Shown: one piece after another, positions 1-8,506 of the stretch
How the letters are laid out: each line of letters begins with the position of its first letter
How positions within the stretch are numbered: position 1 is the first letter of the stretch
Origin: Candidatus Fermentibacteraceae bacterium
GTDB lineage: Bacteria; Fermentibacterota; Fermentibacteria; Fermentibacterales; JCC-6
DNA length: 49,772 nucleotides
Direction: 5' to 3'
Assembly: GCA_016936235.1 (NCBI GenBank)
Contig: JAFGPK010000059.1
Span: forward strand, 1 to 49,772
Program-made: the position numbers and the translations under genes
Notes under the pieces: generated by a model
Told to the model about the DNA's origin: nothing
Databases searched by the model: none
The model's input: the letters and a program-made list of their open reading frames with translations, nothing else

Positions 1-1667
1 CCGAAGTAGTCCTTGGTGAGCTGCCTCTCCCTGACCTCCGGATTGCTGTAGTCGGGAAGGAGCATGGGAGCTATCCTGTCTTCCTCAATACCCGCCCTGT
101 CGACTTCCTCGTTGTAGCGTCTGACGTGGTCCAGGTTCGGCTGACCGGTCTCACCAGCGTTCCTGACGTACTCCGCGGCCCGTGTGCCGGCTATCCTGCC
201 GAAGACTATCACATCCAGGAGGGAGTTGCCCATGAGCCTGTTCTCGCCGTGGACCCCTCCGGTCACCTCGCCTGCTGCGTAGAGACCGGGGATCTTCGTC
301 TCGCAGCTGCTGTTGATATCCAGCCCTCCGTTCTGGTAATGTAGTGTCGGGTGGATGAGCATCGGCTCCTTCGAGATGTCTATTCCGAACCTCCTGAAGA
401 GGATGTGCTTGCCGGGGAATTCCTTCCTTACGGTGCCCTCTCCCTTCAGCATGTCTATCATCGGTGAGTCCAGCCAGACGCCGAACTTGCCCGTGGGGGT
501 GGGAACGCCGTTGCCCCTGCCCTTGGGGCTGCATTCCCTGATTATGCAGGCGGCTTCCACGTCCCTGGGCTCGCGCTCGTAGACGAACTGCTCACCGTGG
601 ACGTTGAGGACGTTCGCCCCGGCACCCCGGAACTTCTCGGTGATGAGGATTCCCTCCGCCTGTTCCGGGAATACCACACCCGTGGGGTGGTACTGCACGG
701 TATGAAGAAAAGAAATGGGCACTCCCGCCCGGTAGGCCATGACTATGCCGTCGGCGGTCGCTCCGTAGTGGTTGGTGGTCATGAACCCCTGGATATGGAG
801 CCTGCCGCTCCCTCCTGTGGCTATGATCACGGCGCTGGCCTTCACAAAGTGATACTCGGCCGTCTCCAGGTTGTAGAGCACGGCCCCGGCGCAGCGTCCC
901 TGGTCGTCAAGGACGAGCTCCACCGCCGGGCAGAACTCTACCACGTCTATCCTGTCCTTGTGGTTGCGGGCCTCGTCACGGATGGTCTTCATTATCTCGG
1001 CACCTGTGATGTCGGCGGCGTAGTGCATCCTCTTCCTGCATGTGCCGCCGCCGTGCATGGTCTTCATGGTGCCGTCCTCGAACTTGGAGAAGGATGCCCC
1101 GAGACCTTCCAGCCACCTGAGCGCGTCCGGGGCGTTGGTGACCATGGTGTAGACAAGCTCGGGGTCGTTAACGAAGTGCCCGCCGCCGAGGACGTCCAGG
1201 TAATGGTAGTACGGGGAATCCTTGCCCACCTTGTCGGCCGCCTGAATGCCTCCCTCGGCCATCATGGTGTTCGCGTCGCCGTGGCGGAGCTTGGTGGCGA
1301 TGAGGACCCTGGCCCCGTTCTCGGCCGCCAGGATGGCCGCAGCGGTTCCGGCGCCGCCGGCGCCTATCACAAGTACATCAGTCTCGTAATCAGGAGAGGA
1401 GAGGTCCACCAGGTCCGGGTTCATCCTGCTCCTGGCCTCCAGCAGGTCCACGAATTCGTTGCTGATGCTGTAGCCCTTGCTCGGGCCGACCTTTATCTCC
1501 CTCCGGGTCCCCTGGATGAAGTCCGGATGGAAAGCCCTGAGGATCGGGTCGCGCTCCTCCAGCTTCAGGGCCTGGAACTCCACCCCCTTCTTCTTGCGTT
1601 CCACTCTTTCCGGACGGGTGGCCTCAACTTTTTCTATGAGCTTCTTCAGTGATTCAGGATACGGCAT
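1..1667 (-). CDS. Fumarate reductase/succinate dehydrogenase-type flavoprotein subunit (3' end beyond window)
   Basis: FAD-dependent flavoprotein of the fumarate reductase/succinate dehydrogenase A family; about 555 N-terminal residues are visible and the C-terminus runs off the left edge. The start ATG at 1667 follows a strong AGGAGGTC site. Visible motifs: the FAD dinucleotide fold VLVIGAGGAGTAAA, the substrate-site segments QYHPTG, EKFRGAGA, LHYQNGG and GVHGENRLMGNSL. These carry the histidines and arginines used for fumarate reduction in this family. The stretch ANTMMAEGG has Asn where membrane fumarate reductases have the His that binds FAD covalently, so FAD is probably non-covalent, as in soluble thiol:fumarate reductases. 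It is the last visible gene of the Hdr/MvhD operon, 30 bases after the Fe-S subunit, so it probably takes electrons from that complex. The natural substrate (fumarate or another enoate) is inferred, not shown. Confidence 0.85.
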   Translation of the reverse strand, partial: MPYPESLKKLIEKVEATRPERVERKKKGVEFQALKLEERDPILRAFHPDFIQGTRREIKVGPSKGYSISNEFVDLLEARSRMNPDLVDLSSPDYETDVLVIGAGGAGTAAAILAAENGARVLIATKLRHGDANTMMAEGGIQAADKVGKDSPYYHYLDVLGGGHFVNDPELVYTMVTNAPDALRWLEGLGASFSKFEDGTMKTMHGGGTCRKRMHYAADITGAEIMKTIRDEARNHKDRIDVVEFCPAVELVLDDQGRCAGAVLYNLETAEYHFVKASAVIIATGGSGRLHIQGFMTTNHYGATADGIVMAYRAGVPISFLHTVQYHPTGVVFPEQAEGILITEKFRGAGANVLNVHGEQFVYEREPRDVEAACIIRECSPKGRGNGVPTPTGKFGVWLDSPMIDMLKGEGTVRKEFPGKHILFRRFGIDISKEPMLIHPTLHYQNGGLDINSSCETKIPGLYAAGEVTGGVHGENRLMGNSLLDVIVFGRIAGTRAAEYVRNAGETGQPNLDHVRRYNEEVDRAGIEEDRIAPMLLPDYSNPEVRERQLTKDYF

Positions 1668-1697
1668 CGCTGACCTCCTGTCCAATTGTTGCATGCA

Positions 1698-2441
1698 TCA
1701 GACGTACCTCGCATCCTGAGGTGTCCAGTTTTCCTCCGCCATCTGGGGTTCCGTCTCCCTGGCACTGTACATCTTCTTGAGCTCATCGATGGATCTCGAC
1801 ATGAGATCGTGCAGAGGCTCCTCGAACCTGCCCTCCTTTATCTCCCTTACACGCTTATCCAGATGTTCGGCCCTGGGAACCCGGTACCTTGCGTTGAGCC
1901 TCCTTGCGAGGATGGCCACATTGAACTGGACTTCCTCCGCGGGGCATCTCGAGGCGCACAGGCCGCACATGATGCAGTCGAAGGAGGTTACCGCCACTCC
2001 CGGGACGTCGCCCCTTATGGCCTGGGCCATGTAGTGCATCACGTCTATGTCCATGGGGCAGCCCATGGTGCAGGCGTTGCATCCTATACACTTGAATATC
2101 TCCGGGTAGAGGGCCGCCACTTCGCCTCCGGTACCCTTGAGCTCCTCGATGTCGAACTCCGTCCTGTTGCCCGGGTAGTAGGGCATTATCATGAGATGCA
2201 TCCCGGGCTGCACAACGGTCTGGCAGGCCAGCCCCACCTGGAGCTTGTAGCTGTCGGGTATCCTGTACACGGTACCGCAGGCCCCGCAGACACCGCCCCT
2301 GCATCCGCAGCCCCGCACATGCTGGTAGCCAGCATATTCCAGGGCCTTCTGAATGGTCAGACTCGCCGGCACCTCGTACCTCTTCCCCATGAAGAAGATG
2401 GGGACCAGCTCGTCCATCGGCTTCTCGGACGCTTTCGTCAT
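1698..2441 (-). CDS. Iron-sulfur subunit, [2Fe-2S] plus two [4Fe-4S] (SdhB/TfrB N-terminal type)
   Basis: Electron-transfer subunit of 247 residues, partner of the downstream flavoprotein. The start is ATG 2441: it overlaps the mvhD stop as ATGA and has GGGAGA upstream. The reading frame stays open further upstream, but that part lies inside mvhD. The N-terminal half holds a plant-type [2Fe-2S] motif GCGCRGGVCGACG followed by ACQT. The C-terminal half has two classic [4Fe-4S] motifs, CIGCNACTMGCP and CIMCGLCASRCP. Canonical SdhB/FrdB carries [2Fe-2S], [4Fe-4S] and [3Fe-4S]; here both C-terminal motifs look four-cysteine. Methanogen TfrB continues into an HdrB-like CCG domain, absent here; a separate HdrB is encoded in the same operon. 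A role as the wire between Hdr/MvhD and the flavoprotein is inferred from context. Confidence 0.85.
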   Translation of the reverse strand: MTKASEKPMDELVPIFFMGKRYEVPASLTIQKALEYAGYQHVRGCGCRGGVCGACGTVYRIPDSYKLQVGLACQTVVQPGMHLMIMPYYPGNRTEFDIEELKGTGGEVAALYPEIFKCIGCNACTMGCPMDIDVMHYMAQAIRGDVPGVAVTSFDCIMCGLCASRCPAEEVQFNVAILARRLNARYRVPRAEHLDKRVREIKEGRFEEPLHDLMSRSIDELKKMYSARETEPQMAEENWTPQDARYV

Positions 2442-2860
2442 TTTGCCATCTCCCTTGCCGCTAGTTTGATCGGTCCCAAGGAACGCAGCTCCTCGGTGAA
2501 TTCGTTCATTACTGCGGCGAATTTGGTTCCCTCCGCCGCGGATATCCATTCGAGCCTGAGCCGGGCCCTGTCTATGCCGAAATCATCCAGCAGACGGTAC
2601 AGGAGGGACACCCTTGCCTGCGTCCTGTAGTTCCCGTCCTGGTAATGGCAGTCGCCCGGGTGGCACCCTCCGATCAGGACTCCGTCAGCGCCCTCCCGAA
2701 AAGCCCACAGGACATGCTCGGGGTCGACCCTGCTGGAGCACATGAACTTGATATTGACTCCGTTCGGCCTGTACTGCAGCCGGGACGTACCCGCCAGATC
2801 GGCTCCGGCGCTGGTACACCAGGTGCAGAGGAAGCAGACTATCCTGGGCTCGAACATCAT
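2438..2860 (-). CDS. mvhD: MvhD-type hydrogenase-linked iron-sulfur protein
   Basis: A 140-residue MvhD family protein (F420-non-reducing hydrogenase iron-sulfur subunit D). In methanogens MvhD passes electrons from the hydrogenase or formate dehydrogenase to HdrA. Visible family features: N-terminal FLCTWC, the central CSSRVDPEHVLWAF segment, and GGCHPGDCHY, which together supply the conserved cysteines for a [2Fe-2S] cluster. The start overlaps the hdrA stop (ATGA), and its own stop overlaps the Fe-S subunit start in the same way, so production is probably tied to its neighbours. Two adjacent ATG codons (2860 and 2857) are possible starts. Length is normal for the family. It marks the Hdr complex as one fed by a hydrogenase or formate dehydrogenase rather than acting alone. 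Confidence 0.92.
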   Translation of the reverse strand: MMFEPRIVCFLCTWCTSAGADLAGTSRLQYRPNGVNIKFMCSSRVDPEHVLWAFREGADGVLIGGCHPGDCHYQDGNYRTQARVSLLYRLLDDFGIDRARLRLEWISAAEGTKFAAVMNEFTEELRSLGPIKLAAREMAK

Positions 2861-4812
2861 TCACCTCCCAGACTTGCGGTGACCATCGATTTGATCTGCG
2901 AGTCGGAGAGGTTCCGCTGCTGCGTGGCGCCGCAGGCGCATGCAGCCACGCAGGAGCCGCAGCCCTCGCACAGAGCCTCGTTCACTCTTGCTATGCACTT
3001 CTCCTCGTCGTATTCGCGGGCGTCGTAGGGGCATACGGAGATGCATATCCTGCACCCTCCGCAAAGCTCCTCGTCCACCCAGGCTATGGCGGGGTCCTGT
3101 TCCAGGTGGTCCCTGGAGAAGAGGGATATCACCTTGCAGGCCGCGCCGCTTGCCTGGGCCACCGTCTCCGGAATGTCCCTGGGCCCCTGGGCGACACCGG
3201 CTATGAAGAACCCGCTGTTGATGCTCTCCACCGGTCTGAGCTTGGGGTGGGCCTCGGAGAGGAAGCCGTTCGGGCCGGTCTGTATCCTCAGCTTCTTCAC
3301 AAGCTCGGCGGTGCTCTCCCTGGGAACGACGGCGGTGGCCAGTACGACAAGGTCCGCCTGGATCTCAACGTTCCTGCCCGTGAGGGTATCGGTGCCCCAG
3401 ACGATGGTCTTGTCGCCGTCGCGGAAGATCTTCGCCACCTTTCCCCGAAGGTAGATTATCCCTTCATCCTGCTCCGCATTGTGATAGAACTCCTCGTACC
3501 CCTTGCCTCCGGTCCTGATGTCTATGTAGAAGATGTAGGGCTGTCCGTCATGAACCCTGTGCTTGTACAGAAGGGCATGCTTCGTGGTGTACATGCAGCA
3601 TATCTTGGAGCAGTAGGGCCTGTACCTCTCCGGGTCCCTGGATCCGGCGCACTGGACGAAGACCACCTCCTTCGGCACCCTGCCGTCGGACGGTCTCCTG
3701 ACCTCGCCGCTGGTGGGCCCCGAGGCCGACAGCAGTCTTTCGAAGGCCAGGCCGTCGATGACATCGGGAACCTCACCTGCGCCGTACTCCTGAAGCTCAG
3801 TCACCGGCAGGGTCTCGTAGCCGGTGGCTGTTATTATGGCCCCGATCTCCTCCTCGATTATCTGGTCCTCCTGGTCGAACTTGATTGCGCCTATCTCGCA
3901 TGTCTTTTCACACAACCTGCATTTGCCGGTCTTGAAGTAGATGCAGCTTTCCCTGTCTATCACGGGCTTGTTGGGCACCGCCTGGGGGAATGGGATGTAG
4001 ATCGCGCCATGAGTGGAGAGACCCCTGTCGAACTCCGAAGGGACCTTTGCCGGACATTTCTCCATGCAAAGACCGCAACCGGTGCATGTGGACCAGTCCA
4101 CGAAGGGGGCCTTTCTCCTGATCCGCACATTGAAGTTCCCCACGTAGCCGGAGACCTCTTCCACCTCTGAATAGGTCATCAGCTGTATATTCCTGTGCTT
4201 TCCCGCCGCAACCATCTTCGGTGTGAGTATGCACTGGGAGCAGTCCAGGGTCGGGAATGTCTCCGAGAGCTGGGCCATGTGACCGCCTATGGAGGACTCC
4301 TTCTCCACGAGAATCACCTTGTGGCCGGAATCGGCGATGTCCAGGGCCGCCTGGATGCCGGCTATCCCTCCTCCTATCACCAGTGCCTTCTTCGTGATGG
4401 AAACGGGAATGGGCTCCAGTGACTCGTTCAGCCTGGTTTTCTCCACCATGGTGCTGACTATCCTTATCGCCTTCTCCGTGGCCTTCTTCCTGTCGGTGTG
4501 CACCCAGCTGCACTGCTCGCGGATATTGGCGATCTCGCACTGCCAGGGGTTCAGGCCGGCCTCCTCCGCCGCGGTTCTGAAGGTGGATTCATGCAGGCTG
4601 GGGGAGCAGGCTGCGATTATGATCCCGTCCAGCTTCTCCTGGCGTATCTTCTCCCGAACCAGCGCCTGGCCGGGATCGGAGCACATGTAGATGTAATCCT
4701 GGGCGTAGACCACGCTGTCCAGCTTGGCAACTTCCTCCGCCACCCGCTTCACGTCCACGGTCCCGGCTATATTGATGCCGCAGTGGCAGATGAATACTCC
4801 TATCCTCTTCAT
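2857..4812 (-). CDS. hdrA: HdrA, FAD and multi-[4Fe-4S] electron-bifurcating subunit
   Basis: HdrA of 651 residues, the flavin-containing core of heterodisulfide reductase-type complexes, where FAD splits electron pairs between a high- and a low-potential acceptor. Visible: the N-terminal domain beginning IGVFICHCGINIAG, the FAD motif VIGGGIAGIQAALDIADSG, the family signature DCSQCILTPKM, a [4Fe-4S] motif CTGCGLCMEKCP, a CRLCEKTCEIGA segment, and a C-terminal two-cluster ferredoxin domain (CGGCRICISVCP and CEGCGSCVAACACGA). Length matches stand-alone HdrA; it is not fused to MvhD. ATGA overlaps join it to hdrB upstream and mvhD downstream. Bacteria lacking CoM and CoB use HdrA with other acceptors; here the fumarate reductase-like pair in the same operon is the obvious candidate. 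Confidence 0.95.
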   Translation of the reverse strand: MKRIGVFICHCGINIAGTVDVKRVAEEVAKLDSVVYAQDYIYMCSDPGQALVREKIRQEKLDGIIIAACSPSLHESTFRTAAEEAGLNPWQCEIANIREQCSWVHTDRKKATEKAIRIVSTMVEKTRLNESLEPIPVSITKKALVIGGGIAGIQAALDIADSGHKVILVEKESSIGGHMAQLSETFPTLDCSQCILTPKMVAAGKHRNIQLMTYSEVEEVSGYVGNFNVRIRRKAPFVDWSTCTGCGLCMEKCPAKVPSEFDRGLSTHGAIYIPFPQAVPNKPVIDRESCIYFKTGKCRLCEKTCEIGAIKFDQEDQIIEEEIGAIITATGYETLPVTELQEYGAGEVPDVIDGLAFERLLSASGPTSGEVRRPSDGRVPKEVVFVQCAGSRDPERYRPYCSKICCMYTTKHALLYKHRVHDGQPYIFYIDIRTGGKGYEEFYHNAEQDEGIIYLRGKVAKIFRDGDKTIVWGTDTLTGRNVEIQADLVVLATAVVPRESTAELVKKLRIQTGPNGFLSEAHPKLRPVESINSGFFIAGVAQGPRDIPETVAQASGAACKVISLFSRDHLEQDPAIAWVDEELCGGCRICISVCPYDAREYDEEKCIARVNEALCEGCGSCVAACACGATQQRNLSDSQIKSMVTASLGGE

Positions 4813-5753
4813 GTCCGGTCCCCTTTCCCGGATCCCTGCAGGATCATGTCAAGAACCGGGGCGACATCCACGAAATGTCTTTCGAATCCCTGTCTCCCCT
4901 CATCGACACCCAGGGCTACTGAGAGGAGCTGGGTGAAGTAGAACACGGGTATCGGCTTGAAATCCGGGTAAGCTTCCGCAATTGCCTTCTGCCTGGAATC
5001 CAGGTTGTAGAAGCAGAGGGGACAGCTGATGACCATGGCATCGGCCCCGTGCTGCTGGGCCGAGGTGAGGATGCGGTAGCAGAGTCTCGTGGAGGCGTCC
5101 GGGCTCGAGACCGACAGGTAGGACCCGCAGCATTCCGTCCTGTAGGGGTACCTGATTGTCTCGGCTCCCAGGGAATCTATGAAATCCTCGATGATGGACG
5201 GGTTCTCGGGTTCGTCCAGCTGGATCTCGTTCTGGGGCCGAAGCATCACGCAGCCGTAGTACGGAGCTATCTTGAGTCCCGAAAGCGGTCTCTTCAGCTT
5301 CTCCCTGATGTTCCCGTAGCCGATCTCGTCCCTTAAGTATTCCATCAGGTGGACGACACGCACTTCGCCGGTGTAGTCCACCCAGTATGCATCCTTCTTC
5401 TCGATGTAGTCCCGTTCCGGTTCATCGTCCGCCAGAAAGGCGTTGATCCTCTTCCTCGTTATCTCGTTGGTCCTTATGCTGTAGTTAGTTCTCTTGAGGG
5501 TGTTGTAACAGAAATCGCATATGGTTATGAGGACGTCCCTTCCGGAGTCCCTCACGTCCTTGAGTATCCTGGAGGGTGCGACCAGGTTCATCACCCTTTC
5601 CTCGGACACCGGGGGAACAGCCCCGCAGCAGGTCCAGGTCGGGAGCTCGTCCAGCTCGAAGCCCAGCCTGACCGCTGAGTCGCGCGCCGACGTGTCGAGA
5701 TGGGAGGACCTTTCCTTAAGGGCACAGCCCGGATAGTAAGCGACCTTGGCCAT
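4809..5753 (-). CDS. hdrB: HdrB, CCG-domain subunit
   Basis: HdrB-family protein of 314 residues with two CCG domains. In methanogens each domain binds a non-cubane [4Fe-4S] cluster, and HdrB is the disulfide-cleaving subunit. The sequence shows YPGCALKERSS and TWTCCGAVPP in the first half, then YYGCVMLRP, ECCGSYLSVSS and CPLCFYN in the second half, which is the expected C...CCG...CxxC pattern. Its stop overlaps the hdrA start (ATGA). It starts 13 bases after hdrC behind a GGAGG-like site. The same domain type also occurs in lactate and glycolate oxidase subunits, but the HdrC-HdrB-HdrA order fixes the assignment. The real disulfide or other substrate in this organism is unknown. Confidence 0.93.
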   Translation of the reverse strand: MAKVAYYPGCALKERSSHLDTSARDSAVRLGFELDELPTWTCCGAVPPVSEERVMNLVAPSRILKDVRDSGRDVLITICDFCYNTLKRTNYSIRTNEITRKRINAFLADDEPERDYIEKKDAYWVDYTGEVRVVHLMEYLRDEIGYGNIREKLKRPLSGLKIAPYYGCVMLRPQNEIQLDEPENPSIIEDFIDSLGAETIRYPYRTECCGSYLSVSSPDASTRLCYRILTSAQQHGADAMVISCPLCFYNLDSRQKAIAEAYPDFKPIPVFYFTQLLSVALGVDEGRQGFERHFVDVAPVLDMILQGSGKGDRT

Positions 5754-5766
5754 GTTTCCTCCAGTT

Positions 5767-6210
5767 CTAGGTTGACAGCTTCCTGTATACGCCTACGAGC
5801 CCGGGCTGGGGGACCGAAGCGGCCTGTTCCGGGTCGATCTGGTCCGGGCCGAAGTGGTCCACTCCCTCGTCAAGGGCGATCTGCCGCAGCGTGTCCATCA
5901 CTCCCTGTATGTCGATGCCCCTGGGGCACCTTACAGTGCACTGAAAGCAGCTGGCGCAGATCCACAGAGTGGCGCTGTGGATGATGTCGTCCTTCAGACC
6001 CAGCTGGGCGAGGCGCATGATCCTGTTCGGCAGGATATCCATCTCCTGGGCCACCGGACATCCTGACGAGCAGTTGCCGCACTGGTAGCAGGAATCCATG
6101 TTCTGTCCGCTGAGCTCGATAACGCGTTTCTTGAATCCGCCGCTGACCGTTTCTCGGGTCAGACGGACCGGAGGGCTCTTGGGGGGAGCCAGACCAGTTC
6201 TTTCGCTCAT
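5767..6210 (-). CDS. hdrC: HdrC, two-[4Fe-4S] subunit
   Basis: Small electron-carrier subunit of 147 residues, linking HdrA to HdrB. Two [4Fe-4S] motifs are visible, CYQCGNCSSGCP and CASCFQCTVRCPRGI, each ending in the CP typical of HdrC, GlpC and related proteins. The hydrophobic helix between them (LPNRIMRLAQLGL) fits HdrC. The N-terminal 35 residues are basic and lack clear family similarity. The start ATG overlaps the stop of the upstream hydrogenase maturation protease (ATGA) and has AGGAGAA a little upstream. It lies directly before hdrB in the normal hdrC-hdrB order. Confidence 0.92.
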   Translation of the reverse strand: MSERTGLAPPKSPPVRLTRETVSGGFKKRVIELSGQNMDSCYQCGNCSSGCPVAQEMDILPNRIMRLAQLGLKDDIIHSATLWICASCFQCTVRCPRGIDIQGVMDTLRQIALDEGVDHFGPDQIDPEQAASVPQPGLVGVYRKLST

Positions 6211-6701
6211 ACCGCCTGTTCTCCTCTCGCTGGATCGTCTGAATCATTCCTGTTGAAATCCGTGAGTTCAAGTTCGATGATACTCTCCGCCAGGGAAGGA
6301 AGCAGCCGGCTGATCCTTTCGGACAGGCGGTCGGAGTATTCTCCGGGAGGCTCTATCTCTATGCCGTATACCTTTATGATGTTCGGGCAGGGAAGCCCGA
6401 GAGCGCGTGATATTTCCGGGATCTGATGCACCGGGAAATGATGGGAGGTGGGTGGAAGATCCTCCCCGGGTTTGAAGTCGATCTCGAGCAGGTCCCCGGG
6501 TTCAGCCCGGCCGGTGCTTACGGAATCGACGATAATGAGACGGCTGCAACATGCTATCCGGTCCACCAGTCTTACGGGCGACACCGATGCGGACAGGATC
6601 TCGAGGTCTCCGGAGGGTTCCAGCATCTCCAGGATCAGATCGGCCAGGGAGCAGCCCACCCCGTCATCGCCAAGGATAGGGTTTCCCAGCCCCAGCAGCA
6701 T
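6207..6701 (-). CDS. [NiFe] hydrogenase maturation protease (HyaD/HycI family)
   Basis: Endopeptidase of the HyaD/HycI/FrcD family, which trims the C-terminus of a [NiFe] hydrogenase large subunit after nickel insertion. The N-terminus LGLGNPILGDDGVG contains the Glu/Asp-type nickel-sensing region, and VDSVSTG and HHFPVHQIPEI supply the later conserved Asp and His positions. I place the start at ATG 6701 behind GGAAGA; a TTG at 6731 would add ten residues but has no clear ribosome site. Translation is coupled to hdrC by ATGA. No hydrogenase structural gene is in the window. The protease therefore predicts one close by, probably beyond the left edge in the same operon, feeding MvhD. About 164 residues, normal for the family. 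Confidence 0.85.
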   Translation of the reverse strand: MLLGLGNPILGDDGVGCSLADLILEMLEPSGDLEILSASVSPVRLVDRIACCSRLIIVDSVSTGRAEPGDLLEIDFKPGEDLPPTSHHFPVHQIPEISRALGLPCPNIIKVYGIEIEPPGEYSDRLSERISRLLPSLAESIIELELTDFNRNDSDDPARGEQAV

Positions 6702-6768
6702 GGTTCTTCCGGGAACGGTTTCGGAATTCAAACGATACCCGGCCGGTTGCGACCGGTGAAGCCTCCCT

Positions 6769-7116
6769 TCAGGGTCCTCTGACGGAACCTGTCTCTATGG
6801 CGTAATCGAAGTAGAACCAGAAATAGTAGACGATCTCTTCATCGGAAAAAGTATCTATCAGTTCGGCATGGGCAATGGAATCGAGAGCCGCCGAAAGCGG
6901 GGCGGAACGGCTCCGCGCCTCTTCGAGCATGATGCCCACATCATGGCAGTCATCACTGTCAGAGACGGCGTCGAAGCTTTCCCTGATGCTGTCGGGGAGA
7001 CATGCCCGGAAGGTGTCCAGCCTTCGCTGACGACCTTCTTCGCGGGTTTCCCTGTCACAAGAAGACACCAGCAGGATACTAGCTGCGAGCAGGACAGTCA
7101 GGGAATCGAAACTCAC
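6769..7116 (-). CDS. Putative lipoprotein of unknown function
   Basis: A 115-residue protein with an N-terminal signal ending in the lipobox LVSSC, so Cys20 or so would be lipid-modified and the protein anchored to a membrane. The rest is acidic and probably helical, with two further cysteines and a tail rich in aromatic residues (VYYFWFYFDYAIE). The start is GTG 7116, overlapping the stop of the PorV-like gene as GTGA; no strong ribosome site is present, which fits translational coupling. I do not recognise the family. It sits between the PorV-like barrel and the hydrogenase/Hdr operon on the same strand, but about 67 bases separate it from the protease start, so membership of that operon is uncertain. 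Confidence 0.6.
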   Translation of the reverse strand: MSFDSLTVLLAASILLVSSCDRETREEGRQRRLDTFRACLPDSIRESFDAVSDSDDCHDVGIMLEEARSRSAPLSAALDSIAHAELIDTFSDEEIVYYFWFYFDYAIETGSVRGP

Positions 7117-8021
7117 AGACCGATGCCGAGACTGAACCTGTGAATGTTCCCCAGGTCCGCCAGGGGCTTGAAGGCGTAGTCCAGCGTGAACCTGTTCCAG
7201 CCTGTCCCGGCGCCGAAAGCCAGGGCGTCAAGGAATCCGCCGCCTGCATTGTCAGCGGTATCCAGGTCTCTAAGGTTTCCGCCGGCCCTGAGGGCCAGCA
7301 TCTCCATGGGCGAGTACTCCACCCCCAGCGCGGCGTTGAAATCACCCTGGAACGGGTAGCATCCGTCCAGCGCAACCAGAAGCCGGTCATCCAGGAAAGC
7401 GAGCGATGCACCTGCAGCTATCTCCGTGGGAACCGGGTCGTTCTCCTGGTAGAACGCCTTGGTCTGGATACCAGCGTTCCTCACCGCCAGACCCAGGGAG
7501 ATAACGGAAGGCCTGTACCATGCGCCGACATCCACCAGGAATGCGTTCCCGCTGTAAGTGTCGATGCTTGAATAGACGAACTTCGCTGTTGTGCCGACGG
7601 AGAGGTCGGGACCGAAGCTGTGTACGTACGTGCCCCCCAGCGCCACGCTGTTGGTGCTGAATTCCTCGCCGGTACCAGTGGGATTGGTCATGGAAGTCCT
7701 GGTGAAGCTGCCTCCGTAGAAATAGTTCACAGAAACACCTACGATGTCGCCCCCGGATGGGTTGACCCATCCCGCGAACCCGGCCTGCATGTCCATGAGG
7801 TATCCCGTGTACGTGGATGTGAACATCTGACGCTGCATTCCGGCCAGGGTGGCCGGATTCCAGTACAGGCCCATGGGATCGCCGGGTACGGCCGTGAAGG
7901 CTCCTCCCATAGCCACAGCTCTTGCTCCCGCGGGAACCCGGAGGAACGCGAACCCTGCCGTTTCAGCCGATGCGGAGCCTGCAAGCAGCGCAAGCAGGAC
8001 CGATGCCATAATAATCTTCAT
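7113..8021 (-). CDS. PorV/PorQ-like outer-membrane beta-barrel protein
   Basis: Secreted protein of 302 residues with signal peptide MKIIMASVLLALLAGSASA. The mature N-terminus has the family hallmark GFAFLRVPAGARAVAMGGAF followed by GLYWNPA, seen in PorV/PorQ (UPF0164-like, FadL-related) barrels of the FCB group. In type IX secretion, PorV carries cargo to the surface attachment machinery, and PorQ-like relatives are common in these lineages. The start chosen is ATG 8021 with a GGAGA site. An ATG at 8072 overlapping the previous stop (TAATG) is in frame, but it has no ribosome site and would bury the signal peptide. The C-terminal part alternates hydrophobic residues as expected for strands. 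Transport cargo unknown. Confidence 0.82.
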   Translation of the reverse strand: MKIIMASVLLALLAGSASAETAGFAFLRVPAGARAVAMGGAFTAVPGDPMGLYWNPATLAGMQRQMFTSTYTGYLMDMQAGFAGWVNPSGGDIVGVSVNYFYGGSFTRTSMTNPTGTGEEFSTNSVALGGTYVHSFGPDLSVGTTAKFVYSSIDTYSGNAFLVDVGAWYRPSVISLGLAVRNAGIQTKAFYQENDPVPTEIAAGASLAFLDDRLLVALDGCYPFQGDFNAALGVEYSPMEMLALRAGGNLRDLDTADNAGGGFLDALAFGAGTGWNRFTLDYAFKPLADLGNIHRFSLGIGL

Positions 8022-8071
8022 CACTGATCTCCGTTTCGAAATTCTTTCAAGTAACCTATAGACTATGGCCA

Positions 8072-8506
8072 TTACATGTTCGGGTCAACGGGGGCGAAGG
8101 CCCATATCACAACCGTACTGTCGGTCCTGAAGCCTCTTATCATGTCCCACGCGCAGACTATCAGGCGCCTGCTCCCGGCGATTTCCGCCGAATCCACTCT
8201 CAATACCGGAATATCGTCGGGCAGGCTGTCCTCCAGGAACCAGCCCTCACCCTCCAGTCTTAGACCCAGATCGAGGATATTGTTCCCGCCAAGGGCGGCG
8301 TAGTAGCCATCCGAACATGTGCCCTCCGGCGGGTACACGCTCACTGTACAGGGCTCAAGGAGGTCAAGTCTCATGTCCGCCAGAGCCACGCACGTGTAGC
8401 CCTGCGAGCTGAGTCTCTCCAGCAGGGAGACCGCTTCAGAGTGAAGAGTGCCCCCGTGGGCCGACTCCATGGCCAGTACTGCCAGGGCAATGTGAAAGAC
8501 TCTCAT
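8072..8506 (-). CDS. Small secreted protein, unknown family
   Basis: A 144-residue protein starting at ATG 8506, overlapping the stop of the ABC permease by one base (TGATG). The frame is open far upstream, but that part runs through the permease gene in another frame and is not real. A short hydrophobic N-terminus (MRVFHIALAVLAMESAHGG) looks like a signal peptide. The remainder has no motif I recognise: two cysteines (in YTCVALA and EPCTVSV), a GYYAALGGNNILDLGLRL segment, and a strand-rich C-terminus ending APVDPNM. It is coupled to two sugar-type permeases, but nothing shows it is a substrate-binding protein; it is far too short for one. Confidence 0.6.
   Translation of the reverse strand: MRVFHIALAVLAMESAHGGTLHSEAVSLLERLSSQGYTCVALADMRLDLLEPCTVSVYPPEGTCSDGYYAALGGNNILDLGLRLEGEGWFLEDSLPDDIPVLRVDSAEIAGSRRLIVCAWDMIRGFRTDSTVVIWAFAPVDPNM

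Follow-up and report, generated by a model that had tools for sequence, protein, structure and literature searches.

An HdrABC-MvhD-fumarate reductase operon in Fermentibacterota, a candidate for hydrogen-driven electron bifurcation, and the apparent joint loss of its hydrogenase module in sister species

We analyzed a stretch of 49,772 nucleotides from a Candidatus Fermentibacteraceae bacterium (assembly GCA_016936235.1, contig JAFGPK010000059.1; hereafter the window, meaning this whole stretch), which is contig C46 from base 1 within a 2.68 Mb genome that is 94% complete. At its left end lies a minus-strand operon with the order hycI-hdrC-hdrB-hdrA-mvhD-FeS-frdA, as read from the list of open reading frames (ORFs) and their Pfam and NCBIfam families. 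It joins genes of the heterodisulfide reductase (Hdr) type to a pair made up of an iron-sulfur (FeS) protein and a flavoprotein of the fumarate reductase (FrdA) type, and probably encodes a soluble, H2-driven fumarate reductase. The features are:

6207..6731, minus strand: hycI-type hydrogenase maturation endoprotease; start TTG at 6731 or ATG at 6701
5767..6210, minus strand: hdrC, two [4Fe-4S] clusters expected (PF13183; TIGR03290)
4809..5753, minus strand: hdrB, two CCG domains and hence two non-cubane [4Fe-4S] sites expected (PF02754; TIGR03288)
2857..4812, minus strand: hdrA, predicted FAD/Fe-S bifurcation core (8rvu, 5odc, HdrA2 model)
2438..2860, minus strand: mvhD (FlpD), predicted [2Fe-2S] link from hydrogenase to HdrA (PF02662)
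1698..2441, minus strand: FeS protein, predicted N-terminal [2Fe-2S] part plus two [4Fe-4S]; ATG at 2441 (12 cysteines; Fer4 Pfam)
3..1694, minus strand: frdA-type flavoprotein, non-covalent FAD expected, N-terminal extension of about 100 residues (PF00890; residues)

The genes are tightly packed. Overlaps of 4 bp join hycI to hdrC, hdrB to hdrA, hdrA to mvhD and mvhD to the FeS gene, while gaps of 13 bp (hdrC-hdrB) and, if frdA starts at 1694, 3 bp (FeS-frdA) complete the series. The contig edge truncates the 3′ end of frdA just short of its stop codon, the FrdA proteins of relatives being four residues longer. Directly upstream of the operon, on the same strand at 6769-8072, are a small lipoprotein-like gene and a PorV-family gene, a pair that keeps its position in both operon variants described below wherever contigs of the genus reach that far.

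Most of the encoded proteins could be assigned from family models. HycI scores 77.2 bits against TIGR00072 (cut-off 47.45) and is also above the cut-off of PF01750. HdrC matches PF13183, reaches 84.8 bits against TIGR03290, under the cut-off of 160, and carries eight cysteines that are invariant across both operon variants. HdrB matches PF02754 in two stretches, scores 166 bits against TIGR03288 and 141 bits against SdhE (the HdrB-like anchor of methylmenaquinol:fumarate reductase, MFR), both under their cut-offs, and matches HdrB of the methanogen structures 8rvu and 5odc; ten of its cysteines are invariant within the hydrogenase-bearing set. Residues 3-648 of HdrA align with methanogen HdrA (8rvu, E = 1.8e-217; also 5odc), an end-to-end alignment with the protein from solved bifurcating complexes, and the HdrA2 model gives 802.6 bits (E = 3.4e-241), under its cut-off of 1100. 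MvhD matches PF02662 (FlpD) at 168.8 bits (E = 6.2e-50). An earlier note, made from the letters of the window alone, had described these genes as joined by stop/start overlaps or tiny gaps and had named the protease, HdrC, HdrB, HdrA, MvhD, the FeS protein and the flavoprotein; the junctions bear out the first statement, and Pfam and NCBIfam agree with the second. It was also right that an FrdA-type flavoprotein follows the FeS gene, and had missed its truncation at the contig end.

The FeS protein contains 12 cysteines whose spacing fits one [2Fe-2S] and two [4Fe-4S] clusters, as the same note had proposed. They are invariant in 51/51 aligned sequences (the window plus 50 of 52 non-redundant sequences, from 68 usable). 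A Pfam search returned Fer4 matches and no [2Fe-2S] match. The protein is 87% identical to its counterpart in Candidatus Aegiribacteria strain MLS_C. Its fold model has a predicted template-modelling score (pTM) of 0.58, and its matches are weak, with query-normalised template-modelling scores of at most 0.33 among the 50 Protein Data Bank (PDB) matches listed; ranked by E-value, subunits of other bifurcating enzymes, RnfC and complex I come first, HdrC is at rank 8, and plant-type ferredoxins stand lower. The TfrB model aligns weakly with FeS, HdrC and HdrB (about 33-35 bits each), which, together with the match of HdrB to SdhE, indicates that wiring from an HdrB-like to an FrdB-like protein has precedent and lends indirect support to a link between HdrB and FeS.

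FrdA matches PF00890 (FAD_binding_2) at E = 1.2e-78, scores 339 bits against the TfrA model (cut-off 718), and its fold model finds E. coli fumarate reductase (1kf6_A) as the best PDB match by E-value. We aligned the window's sequence with 54 of 54 non-redundant sequences (72 usable; 55 rows in all) and assigned active-site and FAD-linking positions from the roles that we take the E. coli FrdA residues to have. The substrate-site residues H336, T338, T352, R356, H452 and R486 are present in 55/55 sequences and E353 in 53/55, and the position of the FAD-linking histidine is occupied by an asparagine (Asn142) in 55/55. Every row also has at least 85 residues ahead of residue 103. This N-terminal extension is modelled with high confidence as mostly helical and lacks a counterpart in solved Frd, Sdh or NadB chains, all 57 matched PDB sequences aligning from residue 97 or later. 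Within residues 1-100 (window 1395-1694), Y12, R27, R30, H56, P57, D58 and G70 are invariant in the 55 rows; the extension perhaps serves docking to FeS or Hdr subunits. Selenocysteine was considered and rejected for frdA: the TGAs flagged in G010, G012 and G013 fall outside the frames, and L134, L132 and L128 have no internal stop.

We searched 41 relatives and the window's own genome, down to the level of the order, and found frdA in 20 genomes (19 plus its own); genes at the relatives' loci were called by tblastn. In 12 of these 20, mvhG and mvhA directly follow frdA (G001-G005, G010, G011, G013, G015, G016, G019 and G036). G036 belongs to another family, and its operon is split over two contigs, with the frdA end, mvhG and mvhA on C301. 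The other frdA carriers comprise six genomes without mvhGA, one (G020) in which the contig with frdA also bears mvhD-mvhG-mvhA, some 20 kb away, and the window's own genome, where the locus is cut. At L035, MvhA and MvhG are nearest to the Vhu models, at 410 and 227 bits, neither of which reaches the curated cut-off. Among 20 aligned MvhA rows, which include duplicate records of the same genomes, all 17 that reach the C-terminus have both [NiFe] motifs and a C-terminal tail past DPCxxCxxH, so MvhA should need an endoprotease such as HycI. Indeed, hycI is present in 9/9 mvhGA-bearing genomes whose upstream side is visible (the G036 copy at 27% identity) and in 0/5 judgeable loci that lack the hydrogenase. 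On this basis mvhGA is expected just past the window's contig edge, beside frdA.

Several further hydrogenase and FrdA loci came to light. Contig C111 of the window's own genome was tried as a continuation of the operon and rejected, as its hydrogenase is a different one and the contig has no frdA or FeS match. At L005 (G000:C30:14000-32677), judged by eye, a NuoD-like hydrogenase-type subunit adjoins apparent antiporter subunits, hydrogenase maturation genes and a glycyl-radical enzyme with its activase. L124 (G004:C90), a single metagenome record, has an in-frame stop in mvhA away from the [NiFe] motifs, for which error and decay are indistinguishable; its sole TGA is not at a [NiFe] cysteine, and selenocysteine was rejected here too. 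G020 has a second, diverged copy at L139 (G020:C51:90000-106460), with an FrdA 50-51% identical and the order HdrA-MvhD-HdrC-HdrB-FeS-FrdA, unlike the main operon. Finally, L137 (G042:C83), from a genome outside the order, has an FrdA 72% identical together with FeS and MvhD and no mvhGA match in the 9 kb downstream; this locus is possibly a transfer between phyla.

We propose, with a probability of roughly 55%, that the product of the operon is a soluble fumarate reductase, built on HdrA, that bifurcates electrons and is driven by H2. The [NiFe]-hydrogenase MvhA/MvhG, matured by the HycI protease, would oxidise H2, and MvhD would hand the electrons on to HdrA and its FAD. From there one stream would pass through the ferredoxin domains of HdrA to ferredoxin, which once reduced could feed Rnf, and the other from HdrC through HdrB and FeS to FrdA, where fumarate would be reduced to succinate. 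Complex formation, the electron path, bifurcation, fumarate as the substrate and the direction of the reaction are all inferred. The earlier note had suggested a bifurcating reductase driven by H2 or formate, and had proposed looking beyond the contig edge for a hydrogenase or a formate dehydrogenase. Its reductase gains from mvhGA in relatives, the recurrence of the FeS-FrdA pair beside Hdr genes and the retained fumarate-site residues, and H2 has to be narrowed to one possible donor among several by the six losses described next; a hydrogenase is found after frdA in the 12 of 20 genomes and is absent from the window's own assembly.

Six relatives lack the hydrogenase module (G006, G007, G009, G012, G017 and G018; completeness 73-96%). 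At all six loci we detected an mvhD remnant, an ORF of 37-51 codons aligning with the last 35-50 residues of MvhD at E ~1e-9 or better in two-sequence comparisons. At the locus, hycI is absent from all five that can be judged, with under 200 bp between its neighbours (the contig of G007 does not reach there), and mvhGA does not lie downstream of frdA in any of the six within the visible stretch, which is about 240 bp in G007 and 2.0 kb in G012. Genome-wide, no close mvhA was found in any of the six: the best match has 40% identity (G018), and G007, G012 and G017 gave nothing at E 1e-20. The small lipoprotein-like and PorV-family genes upstream are the same in the five loss loci that show them and in intact loci, indicating that the two variants arose by changes in place.

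A tree of the five retained core proteins (20 rows; 12/17 inner branches strongly supported) requires three A/B changes between the variants, and the approximately unbiased (AU) test rejects a single loss clade on it (p = 1.15e-6). A tree of three flanking genes (14 rows) gives the same grouping, without G007; here the AU test rejects a single clade less strongly (p = 0.0445), and strongly supported branches force two changes, not three. The first aligning MvhD residue is 100-101 in L033 and L125, 91 in L034, and 103-106 in L042, L043 and L129, and these three classes of breakpoint correspond to the three groups in the tree. Because the tree alone cannot tell the direction of change, it is the mvhD remnants that mark these changes as losses. 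In sister species the genes for handling hydrogen seem to have disappeared on three separate occasions, with the remainder retained, and by this pattern of gene content hycI, mvhD, mvhG and mvhA, which are located at three different points of the operon, act as a single unit.

The retained core, HdrCBA-FeS-FrdA, stays under strong purifying selection without the hydrogenase module. The ratio of nonsynonymous to synonymous substitution rates (dN/dS) is 0.02-0.10 in three loss pairs and 0.03-0.18 in three intact pairs, with the hdrA of L042 excluded. That gene, in a single metagenome record, has an in-frame stop near its start, and error and decay are indistinguishable. Of 29 HdrA cysteines invariant in the genus, the loss variants keep 27; the other two fall in a gap of the L042 row, which was trimmed at the stop, or show a Cys/Ser change in L033 and L125. 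Because the rest of the operon persisted in the six relatives after this module had gone, donors other than H2 are possible as well.

All six loss genomes have further MvhD genes, and Flx-like genes occur in another Hdr cluster in G018 and in the window's own genome. A large second Hdr cluster, L156 (G000:C32:1-19000), has three MvhD genes, several HdrA-like genes, two ChlX-like genes and the series FlxC-FlxB-FlxA-HdrC (ChlX is the label given here to an Fe-S protein gene found mostly in Anaerolineae), and is a possible donor pool for the fumarate reductase core. L157 (G000:C36:6650-11706) has an MvhD-HdrA-like-ChlX-ChlX set, and a similar layout is seen in the loss genomes G006 (L161) and G018 (L159). 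The core would take varied donor modules: H2 in this operon, NADH through Flx in some Clostridia, and another donor in Mvh-less lineages. As a tentative generalisation, HdrCBA-FeS-FrdA might be a self-standing soluble core for fumarate respiration in menaquinone-less bacteria with plug-in donors (MvhD-G-A for H2, Flx for NADH). On this view the H2 module might have been dropped as a unit, from its three operon places, by three lineages of Fermentibacterota, in which the core, lacking its own MvhD, might today work as a ferredoxin:fumarate reductase or draw on MvhD or Flx from other Hdr clusters of the genome.

The FeS-FrdA pair is also found beyond Fermentibacterota. Of 257 confirmed loci, the 80 best were retained, and 64 of these are outside this phylum. 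In 62 of the 64, frdA follows the FeS gene, and the other two end within 125 bp. Comparison of gene order, a check that the earlier note had proposed for relatives, shows the pair recurring near Hdr-type genes: Hdr, MvhD, Flx or ChlX lies nearby in 46 of the 51 loci whose visible upstream side spans 3 kb or more. Across the 64, the neighbours include HdrA (47), MvhD (42), ChlX (36), a full Flx set (8; FlxA is AsrB-like and FlxB AsrA-like) and fumarase (6). At L104, where the pair is homologous to that of the window, the order is Fum, HdrC-HdrB-HdrA-MvhD-FlxC-FlxB-FlxA, FeS-FrdA. FlxA, FlxB, FlxC and ChlX had no match in the window or in the 35 loci of the Fermentibacterota set (duplicates and G042 included), and in G020 a fumarase lies about 2.3 kb from frdA on the opposite strand.

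Genome content was counted in 19 of the 20 frdA-bearing genomes or in 11 selected ones that are at least 90% complete. Class I fumarase is present in 17/19 and RnfC above its cut-off in 16/19; the window's own genome has separate NadB, Rnf and fumarase. Methylmalonyl-CoA mutase occurs in 8/11 and [FeFe]-hydrogenase in 5/11, its own included in both cases. For menaquinone synthesis, MqnA/D and MenD were each found in 0/11, with controls detected; other quinone routes were not searched. This cell context is consistent with fumarate serving as an internal sink without a link to menaquinone. The E0′ of H2 is -414 mV. Those of fumarate and ferredoxin are +33 mV and -420 mV, as tabulated in part of a review (PMC5861303). 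From these E0′ values we calculated roughly -85 kJ/mol for 2 H2 + fumarate + ferredoxin, so that bifurcation would be easily affordable.

A number of observations weigh against an H2-driven bifurcating fumarate reductase. The window's own assembly lacks the mvhA of the operon: C111 carries no more than a relative of 34% identity, and C30 a NuoD-like one, so that for the window the link to H2 rests on hycI and synteny. Six genomes keep the core with mvhD reduced to a remnant and mvhGA absent, indicating that H2 input is not essential to its function. Outside Fermentibacterota, mvhGA lies beside the pair in 0/64 loci, and 5/51 loci have no Hdr, MvhD, Flx or ChlX within reach of FeS-FrdA. FrdB or SdhB is not among the 50 PDB fold matches listed for the FeS model, which are weak throughout. 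HdrB retains both CCG motifs, so disulfide reduction is possible instead. Finally, in the part of the work on tubeworm symbionts that concerns them, the expression of tfrAB departs from that of the Hdr-Flx genes (PMC11636981).

The survival of the core bears on an alternative that we consider unlikely, in which the same proteins form a non-bifurcating H2- or ferredoxin-dependent fumarate reductase and electrons run downhill as a fermentation sink. Purifying selection on the core in six genomes without whole MvhD or MvhGA would suit such an enzyme, and fumarate lies so far above H2 in potential that the reaction needs no bifurcation. HdrA2B2C2 of Methanosarcina acetivorans, moreover, can use ferredoxin, carrying out ferredoxin-dependent heterodisulfide reduction (PMC5296606, in its relevant part). 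Against this stand the end-to-end alignment of HdrA with bifurcating methanogen HdrA and the 27 of 29 cysteines kept even by the loss variants.

It is rather improbable that HdrABC-MvhD(-MvhGA) reduces a small or protein disulfide, with FeS-FrdA reducing fumarate or another enoate separately or through a thiol carrier, as thiol:fumarate reductase does with coenzyme M (CoM) and coenzyme B (CoB) thiols. Such an arrangement would account for the two cysteine-rich CCG domains of HdrB and their invariant cysteines, and the tubeworm symbiont study, in the part drawn on here, leaves a DsrC-like route open alongside the differing expression of tfrAB (PMC11636981). However, the FeS gene overlaps mvhD by 4 bp, and the pair recurs beside Hdr-type genes across phyla.

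The reverse direction, in which succinate and reduced ferredoxin would be oxidised and H2 made (confurcation) for propionate or amino-acid oxidation, we consider very improbable. In E. coli FrdA, losing the covalent FAD link abolishes succinate oxidation and not fumarate reduction; the asparagine at this position in all 55 FrdA sequences argues against the reverse reaction, as do standard energetics, which strongly favour fumarate reduction. Methylmalonyl-CoA mutase in 8/11 genomes would be in keeping with this direction, and strain MLS_C is described, in part of its genome paper, as encoding propionate oxidation through succinate (PMC4846661). A role of the flavoprotein in NAD synthesis, as L-aspartate oxidase (NadB), can be dismissed: the NadB model does give it 278.9 bits, but this is below the cut-off of 452.75, a separate above-cut-off NadB is present in 11/11 genomes (504.7 bits in the window's own), and NadA is present in 17/19.

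Accounts of fumarate respiration usually place it at the membrane, with quinones as carriers. If the proposed H2-driven reductase is real, fermenters with such a soluble, bifurcating enzyme could take H2 back up, produce succinate or propionate, and conserve energy in the form of reduced ferredoxin for Rnf. The Fermentibacterota set amounts to a natural deletion series, in which three joint losses indicate which genes form a unit and which form a stand-alone core; these losses make the proposal of an Hdr-coupled fumarate reductase directly testable.

Compared with the MvhADG-HdrABC complex of methanogens (5odc, 8rvu), HdrA, HdrB, HdrC and MvhD are homologous in the window, and MvhG and MvhA are found in relatives. 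The window has its full-length HdrA, two-CCG HdrB, two-[4Fe-4S] HdrC and MvhD beside HdrA, and differs in its bacterial host, in the FeS protein and FrdA-type flavoprotein within the operon, and in an acceptor taken to be fumarate rather than CoM-S-S-CoB. TfrAB and SdhABE, with subunit roles that we assume, likewise pair an FrdA-type flavoprotein with an FeS protein and an HdrB-like part that feed it; here, however, scores are well under the TfrA, TfrB and SdhE cut-offs, and HdrB is a separate gene, whereas TfrB fuses FeS and HdrB. The quinone-linked FrdABCD and SdhABCD differ in their covalent-FAD histidine, replaced here by Asn142, and in their quinone partner, MqnA/D and MenD having gone undetected in the host genomes.

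Also comparable are the Hdr-coupled fumarate reductases already proposed, whose FeS-FrdA-type pair adjoining HdrABC and an electron-input module is found here, and whose Flx module is not. In Pseudoclostridium thermosuccinogenes, a Flx-Hdr-linked fumarate reductase was proposed, with credit to a 2019 preprint by Koendjbiharie and van Kranenburg; the order is given as fumarase, seven Flx-Hdr genes and two fumarate reductase genes, and added H2 nearly abolished succinate formation (PMC7282089, in the parts that treat this system). Its reported gene order, the basis of our comparison, resembles that of L104, and its input module is for NADH (Flx), in contrast to the [NiFe]-hydrogenase of the window's relatives. 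By description, the cluster noted in part of a study of Ca. Celaenobacter (Cloacimonadota; PMC8542988), Mvh-Hdr-thiol:fumarate reductase-2-oxoglutarate:ferredoxin oxidoreductase (OGOR), is alike in uniting group 3c Mvh, Hdr, fumarate reductase and fumarase, and differs in its reverse tricarboxylic acid (rTCA) cycle setting, with OGOR and succinyl-CoA synthetase. Tubeworm symbionts have a flxABCD-hdrABC-tfrAB-korABCD cluster for which a direct complex was suggested (PMC6315080 and PMC11636981, in part); it too, by description, intersperses Hdr and fumarate reductase genes, and differs in being NADH-linked and tied to the rTCA cycle. A 2018 review of bifurcating enzymes names no fumarate reductase in passages of its abstract and tables (PMC5861303), the MLS_C paper, in the part concerned, mentions heterodisulfide reductase and hydrogenases with no link to fumarate (PMC4846661), and in titles and the starts of abstracts of the open-licence literature searched, neither an assay of a complex of this sort nor a description of the operon from Fermentibacterota appears. 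The kind of system is therefore known as a proposal, in NADH- and H2-linked forms, and what is new is the compact H2-linked operon together with its three joint losses.

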